Shown in pieces: positions 31,239 to 40,703 of a stretch of DNA of 64,000 nucleotides. Source of the DNA: Bdellovibrio sp. NC01 (GTDB lineage: Bacteria; Bdellovibrionota; Bdellovibrionia; Bdellovibrionales; Bdellovibrionaceae); contig NZ_CP030034.1 of assembly GCF_006874625.1 (NCBI RefSeq), forward strand, positions 2,542,001 through 2,606,000, in the 5' to 3' direction. Within the stretch, counting starts at the first letter, position 1; the number at the start of each line of letters is the position of its first letter. A program made the position numbers and the translations under genes. The notes under the pieces were generated by a model. It was not told the origin of the DNA. It made no database searches and worked only from the letters and a program-made list of their open reading frames with translations.

Positions 31239-31322
31239 AGAGATAATTTCACGCCGAAGGTATTGCTTAGTCAATGAATCTGCTTTAAGATTTTTTTATC
31301 GAAGACCGGAGAACGCGGATTG

Positions 31323-32147
31323 ATGCCGAAAATTGAAGCTAGCGCAGTTGAAAGATATCAGAATATCCTCGCAAAAGACCCTGCGTCTCAGGTTTTCGCG
31401 CCTTTGGCTGAAGCTTATCGCGAGATGGGCATGGTGAAAGAGGCTCTGGCAACTGTGACTGCGGGCGTTCAACGCCACCCGCAATTTGTGGGAGGATTGG
31501 TCACATACGCTAAAATTCTGCGTGACACCGGAAAATTTGCTCAAGCTTTAGACATTCTGAAACGCGCGACAGGCTTGGCTCCCGAGAATATCTTAGCTCA
31601 TCAATTAACTGCGGAAGTTCAACTTGCGAATAAAAATCCGAAGGAAGCATTGAAGGCTTTCAAGATGGTTTTATTCTTAAATCCGAACTCTCAATCAGCG
31701 CAAAAAGCTGTGCAGAAATTAGAATCTTTGACTGCGGACGAATACGACGAAGAAGTTTTCGCGATGGCGAAACTTCCACAGGTCAACTTAGATGCTCCGC
31801 CTGAAAAACCAGCACCGGAAACTCCCGCAATTCCAGAGCCGATGTACAAACCTGCACCACCGCCTAAAAATAAGGCGATGGAACGAATGTTGTCTTTGAT
31901 TGATGCCTTCATCGTGCGCAACGATTTAGAAAAAGCGCATGCTCTTTTAAAAGATACACGTGTGGAATTTGGCGATCATCCCGAAATTCAAAGACGTATG
32001 AAGACCCTTCAAGTTCGTTATAATGAACCTGAAGAGCCAATGCCACTGAAGCCTTTGCGCTCGCGTGAAGAACTCATCCAACAAAAGAAGCTCGAAGTTT
32101 TAGAAATGATGCTTCGCAAAATCGAAGACTATCGCTCTCAGATTTGA
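31323..32147 (+). CDS. tetratricopeptide repeat protein
   Basis: A 274-residue cytoplasmic protein. About three TPR units occupy residues 8-135 (LAKDPASQVFAPLAEAYREMGMVKEAL, ILRDTGKFAQALDILKRATGLAPENILAHQLTAE), followed by a proline-rich linker (about 158-185) and a charged helical C-terminus. ATG 31323 follows a possible TTG start at 31320; GGAG at 31308 serves either. It lies 54 bases before efp, so the two may be one unit. The partner is unknown. Confidence 0.75.
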   Translation: MPKIEASAVERYQNILAKDPASQVFAPLAEAYREMGMVKEALATVTAGVQRHPQFVGGLVTYAKILRDTGKFAQALDILKRATGLAPENILAHQLTAEVQLANKNPKEALKAFKMVLFLNPNSQSAQKAVQKLESLTADEYDEEVFAMAKLPQVNLDAPPEKPAPETPAIPEPMYKPAPPPKNKAMERMLSLIDAFIVRNDLEKAHALLKDTRVEFGDHPEIQRRMKTLQVRYNEPEEPMPLKPLRSREELIQQKKLEVLEMMLRKIEDYRSQI

Positions 32148-32201
32148 CTTCCCCCCTGCGTTCTAGGCATATTGGTTCTTTCCAATTGAAAGAGGACTAC
32201 T

Positions 32202-32768
32202 ATGTACGAAACGTCGGATTTTAGAAAAAACTTGAAGATCATGGTTGAAGGCAAGCCTTACGTGATCGTGGATTTCCAACACGTTAAGCCTGGTAAAGGC
32301 AACCAATTCACTCGCACAAAATTGAGAAACATGCTGACAGGTCAAAACCTTGAAGTAACTTTCAAATCTGGTGAAAAATTCGAAGTACCAAACGTTGAAA
32401 ACAAAGAGATGAACTTCTTGTACAAAGACGACACTGGTTTCAACTTCATGTCGAATGAAACTTACGAGCAAATCGCAATGTCTGAAGAAGACCTTGGCGA
32501 ATCTAAATACTACCTAACTGAAGGCCTTAAAGTTGTAGTTCTTTTCTACAATGAAAAAGCTGTTGCAGTTGACGTTCCAAAAGCTGTGAACTTGGCAGTT
32601 GCTAAAACGGACCCAGGTATCAAAGGTGACCGTGTTACTGGCGCAACTAAACCAGCAACTATGGAAACGGGCTTGAATGTTGGCGTGCCTTTGCACATCA
32701 ACGAAGGCGACGTTCTTCGCATCGATACTTCGACTGGCGAATACGTAGAGCGCGTCAGCCAAAAGTAA
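32202..32768 (+). CDS. efp: elongation factor P
   Basis: A 188-residue EF-P with three beta-barrel domains. The modifiable lysine is K32 in VKPGKGNQFTR, at the tip of domain I, followed by the FKSGEKFEV and VTGATKPATMETGL motifs. EF-P rescues ribosomes stalled at polyproline. The MreC, TamB and LysM proteins nearby carry Pro-rich segments, though this is only suggestive. The start has AAGAGGA upstream. Confidence 0.96.
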   Translation: MYETSDFRKNLKIMVEGKPYVIVDFQHVKPGKGNQFTRTKLRNMLTGQNLEVTFKSGEKFEVPNVENKEMNFLYKDDTGFNFMSNETYEQIAMSEEDLGESKYYLTEGLKVVVLFYNEKAVAVDVPKAVNLAVAKTDPGIKGDRVTGATKPATMETGLNVGVPLHINEGDVLRIDTSTGEYVERVSQK

Positions 32769-32801
32769 TTGGCAAAAATAGTTCGATAACGCGAAATATT
32801 A

Positions 32802-32890
32802 AGTCTCCGCAAACACTCGTTTTTATATAAAAATACGAGTGAACTTTAGACTCCCGCGCAAGCGGGAGACTGAAGGCAGCGTAGGAGACT
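32802..32890 (+). promoter_or_regulatory. structured leader of the TPR-tamB-tamA operon, possible SD switch
   Basis: AGTCTCC at 32802-32808 is exactly complementary to GGAGACT at 32865-32871 and again at 32884-32890; the second contains the ribosome-binding GGAG of the next gene. Two local hairpins lie between: CACTCGT/ACGAGTG (32814-32841) and CTCCCGC-GCAA-GCGGGAG (32851-32868). The pairings compete, so the leader could fold with the ribosome site open or closed. Confidence 0.5.
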
Positions 32891-32896
32891 TTTTTC

Positions 32897-33946
32897 TTGT
32901 CCACTTTCATTGAGTTAGAAATTCAAAATTTGCTGAATCAGACTCAAGATCTTGATGAAGTGGCCGCACGTTTAACGAGTGCACTTGAATCTTCTCCGGA
33001 CCAATTTACTTCCGACAACATCACAGCTTATGCGCGCTTCTTGAATGCAAGTGGTAGACACCACAAGCTGACTGAATTTATTTTGCATCACCTTGATAAC
33101 GAAAACTTCCCAGTACCCTGGCCGTATTTTTTTGAAGCCTTGGGACATTCCACTTTAGAGCTTGATGCAAAAACTGTAAAAGCCGTTGTTGAAGGTGTGA
33201 TCGAAGCCGGCGCTGAAAGCGAAGCTTCACGCTCACAGGCTTTGAACAAGTACGAACCGTTGATTGGCGAATGGCGTAGCAATCGCAAATACAAAATTCA
33301 CCGCGACTATTCGAAAAACAAAAAGGCCCTGCTGGATCAATTGATCACTCTGCGCACGCAGCAATTGTACGAACAAGAAAAAAATCTTCTGCAACGTCTG
33401 CAAAAACTTTATCCAGGTGATAACGACATCCAACGCGAAGTTCGTGAACACCAGCAACGTTATGCTTTAGAGATTCTTTCGCGTCGCTCGCCAAAAGCCC
33501 GCACTATCACTGCGGAAGATTTGCAAGTTCGCGATCCACAAGTTGAAGAGACTTTGAAAATCGTTTTGCAATCCATGCTTGAACACGCAGAACAAGAACC
33601 AGATATGGCTTTTGATTTTGCCGTCGCAGCGTTCATGCTTGAAGGCTATGAAGAAGCTTTAGCGATTTTAAAATTCTGCGAACCTACAGAAGCATTATTG
33701 TGGTTGCACCTTGAAGTTCTTTTGAAGTGCCGTCGCTTTGTGGAATTGCTGACTGGGATTGCACACGTTGAACTTTCTTTATCTCATGATCCGGAAACTT
33801 TCTTTGCAACAGCGTACTTGCGTGCGCAAGCATTGTGGGGCTTGGGACAAAAACATACAGCCATTGAAGTGATGGAAGGATTGCTAGCCTCTCGCCCTCA
33901 CTATCGCGCGGCAAGTGCTTTGCTTAGTATTTGGAGCGGTCAATGA
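32897..33946 (+). CDS. TPR-like helical protein, first gene of tam operon
   Basis: A 349-residue cytoplasmic protein of helical repeats with charged heptads in the middle (about 150-185, QLYEQEKNLLQRLQKLYPG). No family name is recognised. The start is TTG at 32897 with GGAG nine bases upstream, in the structured leader. Its stop overlaps tamB (ATGA), so it is translated together with the TamB/TamA-like outer-membrane transport genes and may assist them; that is inference. Confidence 0.7.
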   Translation: MSTFIELEIQNLLNQTQDLDEVAARLTSALESSPDQFTSDNITAYARFLNASGRHHKLTEFILHHLDNENFPVPWPYFFEALGHSTLELDAKTVKAVVEGVIEAGAESEASRSQALNKYEPLIGEWRSNRKYKIHRDYSKNKKALLDQLITLRTQQLYEQEKNLLQRLQKLYPGDNDIQREVREHQQRYALEILSRRSPKARTITAEDLQVRDPQVEETLKIVLQSMLEHAEQEPDMAFDFAVAAFMLEGYEEALAILKFCEPTEALLWLHLEVLLKCRRFVELLTGIAHVELSLSHDPETFFATAYLRAQALWGLGQKHTAIEVMEGLLASRPHYRAASALLSIWSGQ

Positions 33947-36900
33947 AGCGCGTCTTCTGGATCCTGATCACTCCAACATTGGTGTTCTTGATTTTGTGGG
34001 GCCTTGGCAGTTGGCTGATCATTCCGCGTGTTGAGCAATGGGCCCTTAAGGAATTGCAAAGCTATTCGAAGTCATCCCTGCCCGTCGATATTTCTGCGGC
34101 AAAATTGCGTTTGCGTATTTTACGTCCCTCGCTTTCGATGGAAGACATTCAAATTACTCCAAAGGGTGATTTGACGAAAATGCTTTCAAACATTCGTATC
34201 GCCAGTGCGCGTGTGCATTTGGATTTCTTCCAATTGCTTGGCGGTCGAGTCAATCTTTCGGCAGTGGTTGTGGATACACCGGAAGTTCGTATTAACGTTG
34301 ATTCTTTATTGGAAGATAAGACTCCATCCAAACCACTTCCCATTGATGAGATCTTTGCGATCACAGAAAAACTTCCGCTACAAAAAATCTTTGTTCAGAA
34401 TGTTCACGTGTTAGTTGAATCACCTAAAGCCGGTTTTGCAGTTGAAGTGCAAAATGGTGGTTTGCTTTTAACAAACATGGGCAAGAACATCACAGCGAAG
34501 GCGGACGTTCCTAGCTTGCAAGTGAATATGAAAGAATTCGGCAACTACAGCGGTTCTTTCGACACACACATGTATTTAACTCGTCAGTCATTGCGCATTT
34601 TGCAGTTAGGCGCTCATCTTGATCAATCCGAATTCATTGTGCGTGGCGAGCTGACGCCGTTTAAAGACATCACGGTTAAACCCGCTGGTGTTATGTCACT
34701 ATCTGCAAAAGTTTCTTTGGCAGACGTTTTTAATGAACTGAAAAAAGCTCGCCCCGATTTGAAGCTGCCTGAACTTTCGGGCAACGTAACGACAGAAGCA
34801 GAAGCTCGTTTCAATGGTACGAATGATGTGCGCGGCAATGCGCAGATTACAACTCAAGCGGTTGTTGTCGGTAAATTCGAGTTGGGCGACGCAAGCATTC
34901 AGGGCCAATATAAAAATCGCGTCGTCTCGTTTTCAGAAGTGAATCTGAAACACCCCGCCGGCAATGCTTCTTTAACTAATTCACAAATTGATCTAGATAA
35001 TGGCATTTCGTTTAAGACTCGTGCCAAAGTGGAATCTTTGGATTTGCAGAAACTTTTTGTTTCTATCGATCTTAAAAATATTCCAGCGGGCCTTGAAGCC
35101 AGCGGTGAGTTCCCGTGTTCAGGCCAGGTGAAGCCTAATTTTTCGGTCGTGTGTGATGGCGCAAAACTTTCTGCCAAAGATATTTGGGTAAAATCTGAAA
35201 ACAATAAAAAAGGCACGGCTATCTTAAACATCAATACGATGAGTGCCAATGGTCGCGTTGAAGTGACGTCACAAGCTGTGGCCTACAACGCCAACTTGGC
35301 CTTAGGCGATAGCACTGGCACAAGTGACGGCGTCATCGATTTCGATAAGGGCTTTAAGATCAATTATAAAACGAAAAGTCTGGATTTTAAGAACGTCAAA
35401 AATCTTGCGAATCTTAAAATGAAAGGCAGCGCGAGTATTGAAGGCACGACAGAAGGCAACTCTGACACCGCCACGTTCAATATGAGCCTCAATGCCCGCG
35501 ATTTTGTTTTTGAAGATTTTGACTTAGGCAATGTCATTTCCAATGTCAGTCTTCTGCACGGTCACTTGTTGTTTAAAGATATCGCCGGTGCACAGAACAA
35601 AACGCAATACATTGGTGATTTGGACGTTGATCTTACGAACAGCCGCTTATCAGGACAGATTTCTTCACCGACAACAGAACTTGCTGATGTTGCAAAAATT
35701 CTGGATGGTTTCTATCGCTTCCCGATCGCTGTTTCTGGTACGGGTGCTGCAAAAGCCCACATTGATGGTCCACTGAATTTCTGGAAGATGAATTACCATG
35801 TGGAATCAAGCTTCAAGAACGTGGGCTTGGGGACTGAGAATTTCGATCAACTTCACTTCAATGTGGACGCGACGAATGGCAACTTGAAAGCCACGAAAGT
35901 TCAATTGTTGAAAAATGCGTCGGTCATTAATGTCACTGGCGGCATTTCTTCTGAACAAGTGATGAATCTTTTAGTCGACGGTAAAAACTGGCGTCTTGAA
36001 GAATCCAGCATGATCAACAAGATCAATTCGAATATCTACGGCAATTTGAATTTCTCTTCTGAAATCAAAGACACGACTCGTGATCCCCATGTCATGATCA
36101 AAGGCGCGATCACAGACACAGTTCTTGAAGATCAAGAAATCCCAAATTCAAATTTCGTGGTGAAGCTTGATAAACGCTCTATCTCGGGTCAGGTTTCTTT
36201 GTTCGGCGATAAAATGAATGGCGAATTCCAATTCCCTTACGATAAAGGCACAGTGCCGATGATCGTAAAAATGAAGACGAACAAATGGAACTTCTCTAGC
36301 CTTCTTGCGATGGTGGGTGGTGCAAATTTAGCGGCTGAATATGATTCGTCGCTGACTTCGAATATTGATTTGCGCTCGAACAGCGGTGAATTCTTCCGTT
36401 CCAGCGGTAAGATTCACATTGACCACTTCTTCCTGAAACGTGGTCACATGAGTTTGACAAACAGCGGTCCGATCGATGTGACTTCTGAAAACGGCGTGAT
36501 CAATTTCAGAAATTTCTTGCTCCAAGGTCCACAAAATTCAATTCGCGTTTCCGGTAATAACTTTACGACAGAACGTTTGAATCTTGGCGTTGAAACAAAA
36601 GTGGATCTGCGCCTGTTGCAAATCTTTATGCCGTTCCTTGAAGATCTTGGTGGGCCGTTAAATATTTCCGCAAATATCAGTGGCCCGATGCTAAGACCAC
36701 AAATCTTGGGTACTGCTAATCTTGCCAATGCGTTTGTGAAACTTAAAGGCTTCCCACACCCTATCGAAAGACTTTCAACTGAAGTCGCGTTTTCACAAAG
36801 CCGTATCATGATCAATGATATCCGCGGGCAAATGGCTGGTGGAACAATCACAGGTGAAGGCAGCATCACGATCAAAGGCATTAAAGATCTTCCGACGTCC

Positions 36901-37914
36901 ATTCAACTACGCGCTGAAAATGTATCATTGAATGTCCCTGATAAAATCCGCACTAACGGTACAGCTGATTTGACGTTTGCTGGTCACTGGTTCCCGTTCA
37001 CTTTGTCAGGCGTTTATCACGTATCTGGTGGTATCGTTGAAAAAGAATTCACCGGTGGCAGTTCTGGTATCGTCGATGTCAGACAAAGTGTTTATTTGCC
37101 AAAAGTAATTCGTGAAACGCAGTTCGAACCGATTCTTTTGGATCTACAGATTATTTTAGATCGCCCACTAGCGGTTAAGAACTCGATCTTTGACGGTTCT
37201 GCGAGCGGAAACTTGCAAGTGAAAGGTCCCCCAACGAATCCAATTCTTTTGGGTCGTATCCAGGCAGAGAAAAAATCAAAACTTATCTTTAAAGATAAAG
37301 TTTTCGACATTCAAAATGCGACAATCGATTTTAACGATACAACAGAAATCAACCCAATTTTGTTCGCTACGGCAACCGCACGCGTGAACGAATACGATTT
37401 AACGTTGATCGCACAAGGTCCAGCGAAGAGTTTGCAAATCAAAATGGCTTCGGTACCACCGTTGAGCGATCAGGATATTATTTCGTTAATCGCATTGGGT
37501 GTCACATCGACAAGTTTGGATCAAACTGCGGGTGCGCAAAAGAACGTCGCGGAAAATGCGGGTCTTGAAATTGGTGGTGCCGTTATTGCAAAACCAATCA
37601 ACAAGATCACGGAAAGCACAATTGGCTTTAACGTAGCGGTGACGTCGCAATACGATTCGACTCGCAACATCAGTATTCCGAAAATTACGTTAAGTCGTAA
37701 ATTGTCAGAGCGTTTCAAAGTCTCTGGCAGCCGTTCCGTGGGTGACATCGAAGGTTACGATGTGAAGCTTGAGTATCTTTTGAACTCAAACTGGAATGCC
37801 GTCGGTTCTTATGAAAATAAGAGCTTGTATGAAAACGGTACTTTGCAAAACACACAACAAGAAATGGAAAGTGTGTTCGGTCTTGATTTGGAATTTAAGC
37901 GGGAGTTTAAATGA
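33943..37914 (+). CDS. tamB: translocation and assembly module protein TamB (AsmA-like)
   Basis: A 1323-residue protein with one N-terminal membrane span (MKRVFWILITPTLVFLILWGLGSWLI) and a long beta-taco repeat domain typical of the AsmA/TamB/DUF748 superfamily, ending in a conserved C-terminal TamB domain (about residues 1000-1323; PTNPILLGRIQAEKKSKLIFKDKVFDIQNATIDFND, VPPLSDQDIISLIALGVTS). Such proteins bridge the periplasm to carry phospholipids or to help assemble outer-membrane proteins. ATG 33943 has GGAGCGG upstream and it overlaps both neighbours by 4 bases. Confidence 0.9.
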   Translation: MKRVFWILITPTLVFLILWGLGSWLIIPRVEQWALKELQSYSKSSLPVDISAAKLRLRILRPSLSMEDIQITPKGDLTKMLSNIRIASARVHLDFFQLLGGRVNLSAVVVDTPEVRINVDSLLEDKTPSKPLPIDEIFAITEKLPLQKIFVQNVHVLVESPKAGFAVEVQNGGLLLTNMGKNITAKADVPSLQVNMKEFGNYSGSFDTHMYLTRQSLRILQLGAHLDQSEFIVRGELTPFKDITVKPAGVMSLSAKVSLADVFNELKKARPDLKLPELSGNVTTEAEARFNGTNDVRGNAQITTQAVVVGKFELGDASIQGQYKNRVVSFSEVNLKHPAGNASLTNSQIDLDNGISFKTRAKVESLDLQKLFVSIDLKNIPAGLEASGEFPCSGQVKPNFSVVCDGAKLSAKDIWVKSENNKKGTAILNINTMSANGRVEVTSQAVAYNANLALGDSTGTSDGVIDFDKGFKINYKTKSLDFKNVKNLANLKMKGSASIEGTTEGNSDTATFNMSLNARDFVFEDFDLGNVISNVSLLHGHLLFKDIAGAQNKTQYIGDLDVDLTNSRLSGQISSPTTELADVAKILDGFYRFPIAVSGTGAAKAHIDGPLNFWKMNYHVESSFKNVGLGTENFDQLHFNVDATNGNLKATKVQLLKNASVINVTGGISSEQVMNLLVDGKNWRLEESSMINKINSNIYGNLNFSSEIKDTTRDPHVMIKGAITDTVLEDQEIPNSNFVVKLDKRSISGQVSLFGDKMNGEFQFPYDKGTVPMIVKMKTNKWNFSSLLAMVGGANLAAEYDSSLTSNIDLRSNSGEFFRSSGKIHIDHFFLKRGHMSLTNSGPIDVTSENGVINFRNFLLQGPQNSIRVSGNNFTTERLNLGVETKVDLRLLQIFMPFLEDLGGPLNISANISGPMLRPQILGTANLANAFVKLKGFPHPIERLSTEVAFSQSRIMINDIRGQMAGGTITGEGSITIKGIKDLPTSIQLRAENVSLNVPDKIRTNGTADLTFAGHWFPFTLSGVYHVSGGIVEKEFTGGSSGIVDVRQSVYLPKVIRETQFEPILLDLQIILDRPLAVKNSIFDGSASGNLQVKGPPTNPILLGRIQAEKKSKLIFKDKVFDIQNATIDFNDTTEINPILFATATARVNEYDLTLIAQGPAKSLQIKMASVPPLSDQDIISLIALGVTSTSLDQTAGAQKNVAENAGLEIGGAVIAKPINKITESTIGFNVAVTSQYDSTRNISIPKITLSRKLSERFKVSGSRSVGDIEGYDVKLEYLLNSNWNAVGSYENKSLYENGTLQNTQQEMESVFGLDLEFKREFK

Positions 37915-40703
37915 TTCTGGGTTCTCGAGCTCTCCGCTTGTCTGCAGCATTGTTGATTTCATTGGCAGTTCTACCCGCTTGGGCGAAGAAACCATTGGAT
38001 CTTTCAAACTTCCCCCCGGAAGTTCGCACGGAAGTTTATAAGCGTTTCCCTTTTGCTGAACGCGAGCGTCTTTCTTTAGATCAAATCGATGAGGTCATTC
38101 GTCTGTTGCAACTGAAGCCAGACTACGATCGTCTGCAAGTTTTTGATGAAGCCAACAGTTATAAAATCAAATATCTGAAAACCAAGCGCATTGGTGACGT
38201 TAAATTTGAAGGTATAAACTTCTACTCGAAAACAGATGCTTTAATTACTTTCGGAGTTAAAGCTGGCGACGTCTTCGATCAGCAGACATTGATTGAACAA
38301 GGCGAGAAACTACGTCAAGCGTATAAAGATCAGGGTTATTTCAACGCCGTGGTTGATATCGAGATGCCTCCGCGTGAAGACGGCAACGTCGACATCATTG
38401 TAAAAGTCACTGAAAACAAACGGACACTGATCAACAAAATCGTTATTCAAAGTGCGAATGGCGAATTGAATAAAACATTAGGCAATAAACTTGATAGTCG
38501 CTTAGATTCCGCGTTAACAGACAAGAATTTAGCCGATATCAACTCGCGGGCGCGCGCCTTCTTGATTGATAAGAAATACGTGCGCGCAGAAATCATCGGT
38601 CCTAACATTTCTTACAGCGCAGACGAATCTGAAGCGACGTTGCTGTATCGTATCGAGCACGTCGAAAAATATCAGTTTGATTTCAAGGGCAATACGATTC
38701 GCAAGGGCCGCATTGAAAATGCCTTAGAGCTTGATAACTATTACTCGACGAATCCAAATATTGGTTCCGAGCTTGCGATTAAGATCCGTAACTACTATTG
38801 GTCACAAGGTTATGCGCGTGCAGAAGTCACATTCCAGGAAACTGATGTCGATACATTCTCGCGCAAGATTGTATTTGAAATTGAAGAAGGCCCGCAGATT
38901 AAGATCGCTGATATTGTGATCAACGGTAAATTCAGCCGTCGTGCAGGATACTATTCGCGTTTTATTAAAAACCACAGTTCTGAAATCGTCGCCGACAACA
39001 TCTATAACAAAGACGACCTGGATACAGGCTTTAGAAACCTTGTTCTGCAAATGCAGAATGACGGTTACCTGCAAGCGAAGATCGTTTCAACGCGCATTCA
39101 ATACAACCGCGAAAAAACTCAAGTCACGATCCATGTGAATATTGACGAAGGCCCATTGACGACTATTAAAACGGTCGAGTTCAGCGGCAACACGGCTTAT
39201 TCGAATGAAGAACTCTTAAAAGTCACAAAGATCAAACCAGGTGCCTTAAAGCTTAGCCAGATCGAAGAAGCGGTTGCGAATATCAAAAGCTTCTATCGTG
39301 ATAACGGTTACATCGAAATGCAGCTTCTGAATGAAAAAGAAGATCTGGTTACTTACGACGAAACAAACACTCAAGCGATTCTGAACTTTAAAATCTTTGA
39401 AGGTCCACAAGTTCGTGCAGCCTCAATCGTTCTTGAAGGCAATACGTTTACTCGCGATTCTGTGATCAAAATGGAATTGGAAGTAAAACAGGGTGAATTG
39501 ATTACCCCGCAAAAAATTGAAGACTCGATCACTCACCTGCAACGTACGGGTTTCTTTTCGACTGTTGAAGTGCGCACTGTCGAAGAAAAAACGAACGTCG
39601 CTAATCGTACCGTATTGGTGAAAGTGACAGAGCGTGATCCGGGTCTTTTGACTTTGGGTGGTGGTGCAACGAACGAAAGAACGTTCACACTTCGTGGTTA
39701 CGCGGCGGTTGCTTATCGTAACTTGATGGGTACCGGTCGTGGTATTTCCCTTCGTCTTGAAGGCAACTACAACGTAACGGAATTTAAGTATCTTGAAAGT
39801 AAATTGATCATGGGCTACCTCGAGCCGTATTTATTCAATACGCGCGTTCGTGGCCGCGTGAACTTTACGTTATCAAGTCAGATCACTGATTACGATGTCG
39901 GTCAGGTCACTGATTTGAACTCGTACACGTACACCATCGAACGCGATTTCACGACGCACATTTTAGGCACGTGGGATATATGGTCATTGGCACAAGTAAA
40001 AGACCGTGGTTTGACTGACAAGTATCCGTACAAACCGACTCGCCAAGATATCGTGACGACGGGACCAAATGTCGATATCGATTATCGCGACAACCCATTC
40101 AATCCCACTCGCGGAACGTTCACACGTATTAATGCGGAATACGCAGATCCTGCGATCGGTGCGACAGAGACTATTAAATACTGGCGTGCTGTCGGTAGCT
40201 TCACACATTACTTGCAAACAGCGACTTGGCAAAAACAACCGGTCGTATGGGCGAATCAAGTGCGTGGTGGTTATCTAAAAAATTTGGCGAACATGCCTGA
40301 CGATGACAATGGTGTGCCTTGGGATAAAAAAGGTTTCAGCTTAGGTGGTACATCTACTGTGCGCGGTTACGAACCAGGTGTTGAATATTTCCCAAGTAAA
40401 AGAGATTTGGGCATCGAAGGCACGTCGAATAAGTATTACTTAACGACAGATTCAACGATGTTCTTATTTAAGTCAGAATTGCGCTTCCCTGTTTGGGGCA
40501 GCCTTGGTGGCGCGGTCTTCTATGATGGCGGTGAAGTATTAATTCAAGGTTTAGATATCAATGAGCCGTACCGTGCAGGTACTGGTTTTGGTATTCGCTA
40601 CAACACTCCGGTCGGCCCTTTGAGTGTCGATATGGCGTGGAAATTAAATCAACAGCCGGGTGAAAGCCCTTGGCGTATCCATCTATCAATCGGTACTTAC
40701 TAA
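37911..40703 (+). CDS. BamA/TamA-family outer-membrane protein with about six POTRA domains
   Basis: A 930-residue protein with a signal peptide (about 1-25). I count six POTRA-like units (about residues 82-170, 170-248, 249-325, 326-415, 416-498, 499-577), each ending in a GxY-x-N/R-A-x-V-type strand (QGYFNAVVDI, QGYARAEVTF, DGYLQAKIVS, NGYIEMQLL, TGFFSTVEV). A sixteen-strand barrel follows (about 578-930) with the VRGYEPG loop motif and a C-terminal aromatic. Gene order after tamB says TamA role, but six POTRA exceed TamA (three) and BamA (five), so a specialised BamA-like TamA is best. ATGA overlap with tamB. Confidence 0.88.
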   Translation: MILGSRALRLSAALLISLAVLPAWAKKPLDLSNFPPEVRTEVYKRFPFAERERLSLDQIDEVIRLLQLKPDYDRLQVFDEANSYKIKYLKTKRIGDVKFEGINFYSKTDALITFGVKAGDVFDQQTLIEQGEKLRQAYKDQGYFNAVVDIEMPPREDGNVDIIVKVTENKRTLINKIVIQSANGELNKTLGNKLDSRLDSALTDKNLADINSRARAFLIDKKYVRAEIIGPNISYSADESEATLLYRIEHVEKYQFDFKGNTIRKGRIENALELDNYYSTNPNIGSELAIKIRNYYWSQGYARAEVTFQETDVDTFSRKIVFEIEEGPQIKIADIVINGKFSRRAGYYSRFIKNHSSEIVADNIYNKDDLDTGFRNLVLQMQNDGYLQAKIVSTRIQYNREKTQVTIHVNIDEGPLTTIKTVEFSGNTAYSNEELLKVTKIKPGALKLSQIEEAVANIKSFYRDNGYIEMQLLNEKEDLVTYDETNTQAILNFKIFEGPQVRAASIVLEGNTFTRDSVIKMELEVKQGELITPQKIEDSITHLQRTGFFSTVEVRTVEEKTNVANRTVLVKVTERDPGLLTLGGGATNERTFTLRGYAAVAYRNLMGTGRGISLRLEGNYNVTEFKYLESKLIMGYLEPYLFNTRVRGRVNFTLSSQITDYDVGQVTDLNSYTYTIERDFTTHILGTWDIWSLAQVKDRGLTDKYPYKPTRQDIVTTGPNVDIDYRDNPFNPTRGTFTRINAEYADPAIGATETIKYWRAVGSFTHYLQTATWQKQPVVWANQVRGGYLKNLANMPDDDNGVPWDKKGFSLGGTSTVRGYEPGVEYFPSKRDLGIEGTSNKYYLTTDSTMFLFKSELRFPVWGSLGGAVFYDGGEVLIQGLDINEPYRAGTGFGIRYNTPVGPLSVDMAWKLNQQPGESPWRIHLSIGTY

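Follow-up and report, generated by a model that had tools for sequence, protein, structure and literature searches.

What does the leader of the TPR–tamB–tamA operon of Bdellovibrio do, lying directly behind efp and folding, as predicted, over the ribosome site of the operon's own first gene? The window analysed here is a stretch of 64,000 nucleotides of Bdellovibrio sp. NC01, in which the genes concerned are arranged as follows.

32202–32768, + strand: efp, with three EF-P domains; the upstream gene and, in our model, the source of read-through RNA.
32897–33946, + strand: TPR gene, a Bd2492/SgmX1 homologue, with a TTG start.
33931–40703, + strand: tamB-like and tamA-like genes of the operon, with Pfam TamB, POTRA and Omp85 matches.

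These matches bear out the envelope-assembly genes (TPR, TamB and TamA-like) that the original prediction placed downstream of the leader, the Pfam TPR matches in the TPR gene itself being below Pfam's curated cut-off. The gene order equals bd2492–bd2494–bd2495 of B. bacteriovorus HD100, for which co-transcription was found by RT–PCR on attack-phase RNA (PMC3983030). Bd2492, renamed SgmX1 in PMC11025332, is reported to bind MglA and to be required for the invasion of prey; tamA could not be deleted, and its product is reported to be essential (PMC3983030). efp lies upstream of the TPR gene in all 23 loci of the genus (in one, where the contig starts, only its end is present). In the window, efp is flanked by two TPR genes (31320–33946), the upstream one (31320–32147) being probably, by gene order, the homologue of the Bd2490/SgmX2 described in PMC11025332. 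Within the open-access full-text literature, we found no earlier description of the leader or promoter of the Bd2492 operon.

The original prediction was of a riboswitch-like leader in which one AGTCTCC segment could pair with either of two GGAGACT segments. The segments are indeed there, AGTCTCC at 32802–32808 and GGAGACT at 32865–32871 and 32884–32890, the second copy containing the Shine–Dalgarno (SD) sequence GGAG (32884–32887), 13 nt 5′ of the TTG at 32897. The predicted fold of the window region (minimum free energy −48.3 kcal/mol, z = −5.1; 0 of 200 shuffles equally stable) is branched, with a closing stem P1 (AAGUCUCC/GGAGACUU) followed by P2 and P3, which correspond to the two local hairpins expected between the segments.

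32801–32808, + strand: 5′ arm of P1, AAGTCTCC, from the fold and genus conservation.
32814–32841, + strand: P2 hairpin of the predicted fold, spanning a putative −10 box.
32844–32875, + strand: P3 hairpin of the predicted fold, with a GCAA loop, containing the first GGAGACT copy.
32884–32891, + strand: 3′ arm of P1, GGAGACTT, with the SD GGAG at 32884–32887, from the fold and conservation.
32890–32895, + strand: terminator-like U-tract directly beside the base of P1; 22 of the 23 genus loci have 5 or more T in 8.

The first GGAGACT copy, described as free-standing, proves to belong to a GC-rich 7-bp hairpin, whose 3′ arm contains it. Forcing AGTCTCC onto it gives −34.9 instead of −48.3 kcal/mol, a cost of 13.4 kcal/mol, and the pair probability of AGTCTCC is 0.98 with the SD copy versus 6e-9 with the first copy; the two folds are therefore not in competition. 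Complementary segments do recur in relatives as far as P1 is concerned, which is kept in all 23 genus loci; its 5′ arm has a perfect second partner in one of them, that of the window. Three loci (L016, L020 and L024) have a 7-pair alternative needing G·U pairs and the remaining genus loci have 4–6 pairs. On energy and absence of conservation together we reject the alternative pairing as a switch, and an Rfam scan of the region returned no family, neither at the gathering score nor at E ≤ 1, leaving the riboswitch-like behaviour unsupported.

P1 itself is a different matter. The genus is represented by 24 genomes, 23 of them with the TPR gene (start codon TTG in 22 loci and GTG in one), and P1 is present in all 23. 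Its 5′ arm reads TTAAGTCTCCGC in 22 and its SD arm GCGGAGGCT in 20, with the arms pairing in every case; among the ten inner pairs, six are intact in 23 of 23 loci and the other four in 20 to 22. Covariation in relatives, by which the original prediction proposed to judge the pairing, is thin in P1 because its pairs are nearly invariant: locus L009 has one double change (G–C to A–U) and a neighbouring U·G to C–G, and no P1 covariation occurs in the 12 loci taken for alignment from the 16 outside the window's clade. Within that clade, an alignment of four of the seven loci contains a double change in 5 of 22 predicted pairs, one of them in P1, and P2 and P3 change their letters while the pairing stays. 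Both GCAA and UUCG loops are found among the P2 and P3 hairpins of the genus loci, and the position of P3 is taken in four loci (L006, L007, L009 and L012) by a hairpin of quite different sequence.

Measured from two bases 5′ of TTAAG to the start codon, the folding z-scores of the 23 genus loci run from −4.1 to −7.9 (mean −6.3). As a control, we took 233 upstream regions with an SD from the same genome: their minimum z is −4.7 and none reaches −6, these being rough scores from 40 shuffles per region; 19 non-genus loci, selected for having the DNA element described below, give a mean z of −0.8 (range −3.5 to 1.1). The 8-bp P1 of the window, taken by itself, ranks 21 of 276 among SD-covering stems in a sample of the same genome, which rules out P1 alone as an outlier, and stem length by itself is therefore no proof. 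What goes beyond chance is the conservation of P1 in 23 of 23 genus members together with the folding z of the whole region, not the 8-bp stem alone. We conclude that the predicted stem over the ribosome site of the operon's first gene is real and kept by relatives. By eye, locus L055, of a genus without the full P1, has a shorter AGTCTC/GAGACT complement overlapping the SD upstream of its TPR gene, either by chance or as a parallel case.

Most of the 5′ arm of P1 is also contained in a block of DNA with a wider distribution than the stem, and we infer from this block and its surroundings the promoter activity and start point listed here.

32799–32807, + strand: TTAAGTCTC, upstream block of a family-wide element, at about −42 to −34 from the putative start.
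32829–32834, + strand: putative −10 box, AAAAAT, from its fixed distance to TTAAGTCTC and from leaderless starts in relatives.
32841, + strand: putative transcription start of the TPR–tamB–tamA operon, from the 6-nt spacing in leaderless relatives.

The element, TTAAGTCTC-N22-AAAATA, has a spacer of 22 bases (23 in L028 and L069), and its hexamer, AAAAAT in the window, is mostly CAAAAT in relatives. The family sample comprises 66 genomes, 63 with a TPR match, of which 23 belong to the genus and 40 do not; 31 of these 40 were examined upstream of the gene, G031, G033, G036, G067, G073, G079, G081, G084 and G085 being left out. The element is present in the genus, in 18 of the 31 and in one order-level locus (19 order-level genomes have a match and nine were examined, G052 having a weak element copy), and is absent from 13 of the 31, namely 11 loci of genus g3, G062, and G083, in which the contig stops at this point. 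It is seen in other genera without the P1 stem, and we infer that it is ancestral, older than the genus Bdellovibrio. In genus g3 (L044, L047, L048, L049, L051–L054, L057, L058 and L060), the missing element goes with short efp–TPR gaps, as would be expected had the TPR gene become part of the efp transcript. Many family loci also have a TAAC(GC)-type block some 13 bases upstream of TTAAGTCTC (32785–32793 in the window), perhaps half of an activator site.

The element follows the TPR gene rather than efp, staying with the former in the three loci in which efp is not adjacent (L029, L030 and L036), in one of which, L030, a canonical terminator stands directly after efp. It also stands at a constant distance from leaderless starts. 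Among the 19 non-genus motif loci, which were selected for having the motif and of which five score 11–12 of 15, close to what chance reaches at best with other spacings, the distance from NAAAAT to the first in-frame start is exactly 6 nt in seven (six GTG, one ATG) and 7 and 8 nt in two further loci. By eye, NAAAAT-N6-GTG is also present in L063 and L064, two order-level loci in which TTAAGTCTC is not clear. The TPR gene looks leaderless in L032, L038, L039, L040, L043, L046 and L050, and also in L063, L064 and L069, with GTG or ATG 6–7 nt after NAAAAT; these loci come from several Bdellovibrionaceae genera and from two order-level genomes. The conserved single-stranded loop GCAAAATA is thus better explained as a −10 box than as an aptamer, because other genera keep it, beside leaderless starts, where the RNA has no comparable structure.

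R1, a model of the element based on sequence alone, was built from an alignment of the 19 non-genus motif loci and 14 genus loci. Most family genomes contain a single strong R1 site, which lies at the TPR gene; matches in the 33 source loci are not independent because these loci built the model, and independent recovery comes from G036, absent from the training set, with a match just upstream of a TPR fragment (E 3.9e-5). The element is single-copy and seemingly on no other gene of the family genomes, whereas a promoter used by a general factor would normally recur. The idea of a regulon was discarded: the exact pattern and R1 both give the TPR locus, and matches are otherwise at control or chance level. 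A scan of the region with the sigma-70 consensus gave no match at the element, NAAAAT being a weak −10 box. The Bdellovibrio FliA (sigma-28) motif is TTAAG-N16-CCGATA (PMC3627812), and a FliA promoter was rejected on an alignment read by eye, TTAAG being present and CCGATA not seen at that spacing.

With a start at 32841, 7 nt past the hexamer as in the leaderless relatives, the transcript would be without the 5′ arm of P1 and nearly all of P2. Folding the two kinds of RNA separately gives a mean z over the 23 loci of −0.1 for RNA from the putative start, as against −6.3 for the segment in read-through RNA. The median energy needed to open five bases at the SD is 4.0 (range 2.2–7.4) kcal/mol in the former and 14.4 (7.4–15.6) kcal/mol in the latter; without the P1 5′ arm, the SD of promoter-born RNA would therefore be much easier to open. 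In upstream-begun RNA, the predicted unpaired probability of the SD is 0.00–0.02 in 23 of 23 genus loci, which agrees with the earlier claim of a structure over the first gene's ribosome site, and without the 5′ arm it varies from 0.00 (L018) to 0.98 (L013), with 0.26 in the window. No other simple terminator was found between efp and the TPR start codon. L016, the one exception to the U-tract after P1, keeps P1, so SD hiding may matter by itself.

The locus looks more like insulation against read-through from efp than like a riboswitch, and we propose, with about an even chance of being right, that a promoter and a genus-specific read-through lock together uncouple the sgmX1–tamB–tamA operon from efp. 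The first device would be the operon's own promoter, TTAAGTCTC-N22-AAAATA, with a start near 32841, and the second an RNA structure specific to the genus that would form only in RNA arriving from efp. In that RNA, the transcribed promoter sequence would pair with the operon leader, including the SD and the base beside the U-tract, so that read-through transcripts would be terminated or, if continuing, left untranslated at the TTG. Promoter-born RNA, without the P1 5′ arm, would have an SD that opens much more easily.

The start codons of the relatives suggest how such a lock may have come about. In the leaderless genera, read-through RNA from efp would lack a clear SD where the start codon lies. 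In Bdellovibrio, where the start codon lies 20–56 nt downstream of the putative start point and is led by an SD, it may have moved downstream and gained the SD, the new leader becoming complementary to the promoter sequence that precedes it. Both layouts would give one rule, that mainly promoter-born RNA is translated. In other genera efp adjoins the TPR gene without P1; the lock is therefore not needed everywhere. A bolder account, which we offer tentatively and think likelier to be wrong than right, is that the promoter sequence of a predation operon, once transcribed, serves as the antisense half of a terminator and translation lock, that this arose at the change from leaderless to SD-led initiation and restores the leaderless rule, and that the arms, at near-helical spacing, are also read as DNA.

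Other readings have to be weighed against the promoter and lock. The plainest, which we consider unlikely, dispenses with the promoter and takes P1 and the U-tract as the terminator of efp, an attenuator allowing a fixed low read-through to the operon. The strong stem, the U-tract and the lack of a sigma-70-like site all suit it, but it leaves unexplained the DNA element in genera without the stem, the constant distance from element to leaderless start and the persistence of the element at TPR genes that have no adjacent efp; moreover, an essential operon translated solely from locked RNA would be poorly expressed. A riboswitch or factor-controlled leader, in which the opening of P1 in upstream-begun RNA would depend on a ligand, protein or small RNA and switch on translation or transcription, with no need of the second GGAGACT, would make sense of a conserved unpaired loop beside an SD-hiding stem. 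It appears quite improbable, given that the alternative pairing lacks conservation and is, in the window, less stable by 13.4 kcal/mol, that Rfam offers no match and that the loop is kept also where the RNA structure is absent.

It is also conceivable that the repeat acts as DNA: a regulator bound both to TTAAGTCTCCGC and to the inverted copy at the SD would loop the DNA, and the RNA stem would be a by-product. The arm-to-arm distances (52–53, 63, 72–74 and 84–85, with one of 60) fall near multiples of a 10.5-bp helical turn, with a Rayleigh length at period 10.5 of 0.894 for the 23 loci and 0.77 for the 8 distinct values, and the T-to-C arm mismatch occurs also in single element copies of other genera. 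The tree, however, shows few independent length changes; P2 and P3 keep their pairing despite changed letters and have GCAA and UUCG loops; and most genera keeping the element are without the 3′ arm. We find this reading hard to credit. If the promoter with its read-through lock is correct, it explains how the Bd2492/SgmX1–TamAB operon stays independent of efp, reveals a read-through lock of the phage type operating on a bacterial chromosome and provides a worked comparison of a leaderless gene becoming SD-led without coming under its neighbour's control.

Parts of the arrangement resemble known systems. With intrinsic (rho-independent) terminators it shares a GC-rich stem and an immediate U-tract, 15–60 nt after the efp stop, but here the loop is large and branched, the 3′ arm doubles as the SD of the next gene and one locus, L016, is without the U-tract. 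In the fold-back inhibition of IS10, read-through RNA hides the ribosome-binding site and RNA from the element's own promoter does not, much as predicted here, although the IS10 gene is the transposase of a mobile element. The TPR genes of other genera, starting a few nucleotides after a −10-like hexamer, recall the leaderless genes with an ORF-adjacent −10 box described in PMC12340547; the hexamer there is TANNNT and here NAAAAT, and the Bdellovibrio start is 20–56 nt further downstream, with an SD. The closest precedent for the proposed lock would be the control of I-TevI in phage T4, where only transcripts started upstream form the hairpin, late-promoter RNA being without part of it (PMC2988022). 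In both cases, a structure, here a predicted one, hides the ribosome-binding site in RNA started upstream, and a promoter between the arms, here a putative one, would yield RNA that cannot form the stem. I-TevI is a mobile endonuclease gene, whereas the present locus is a core operon of a bacterial chromosome, with a multi-branched stem followed by a U-tract, a putative promoter and conservation through the genus.
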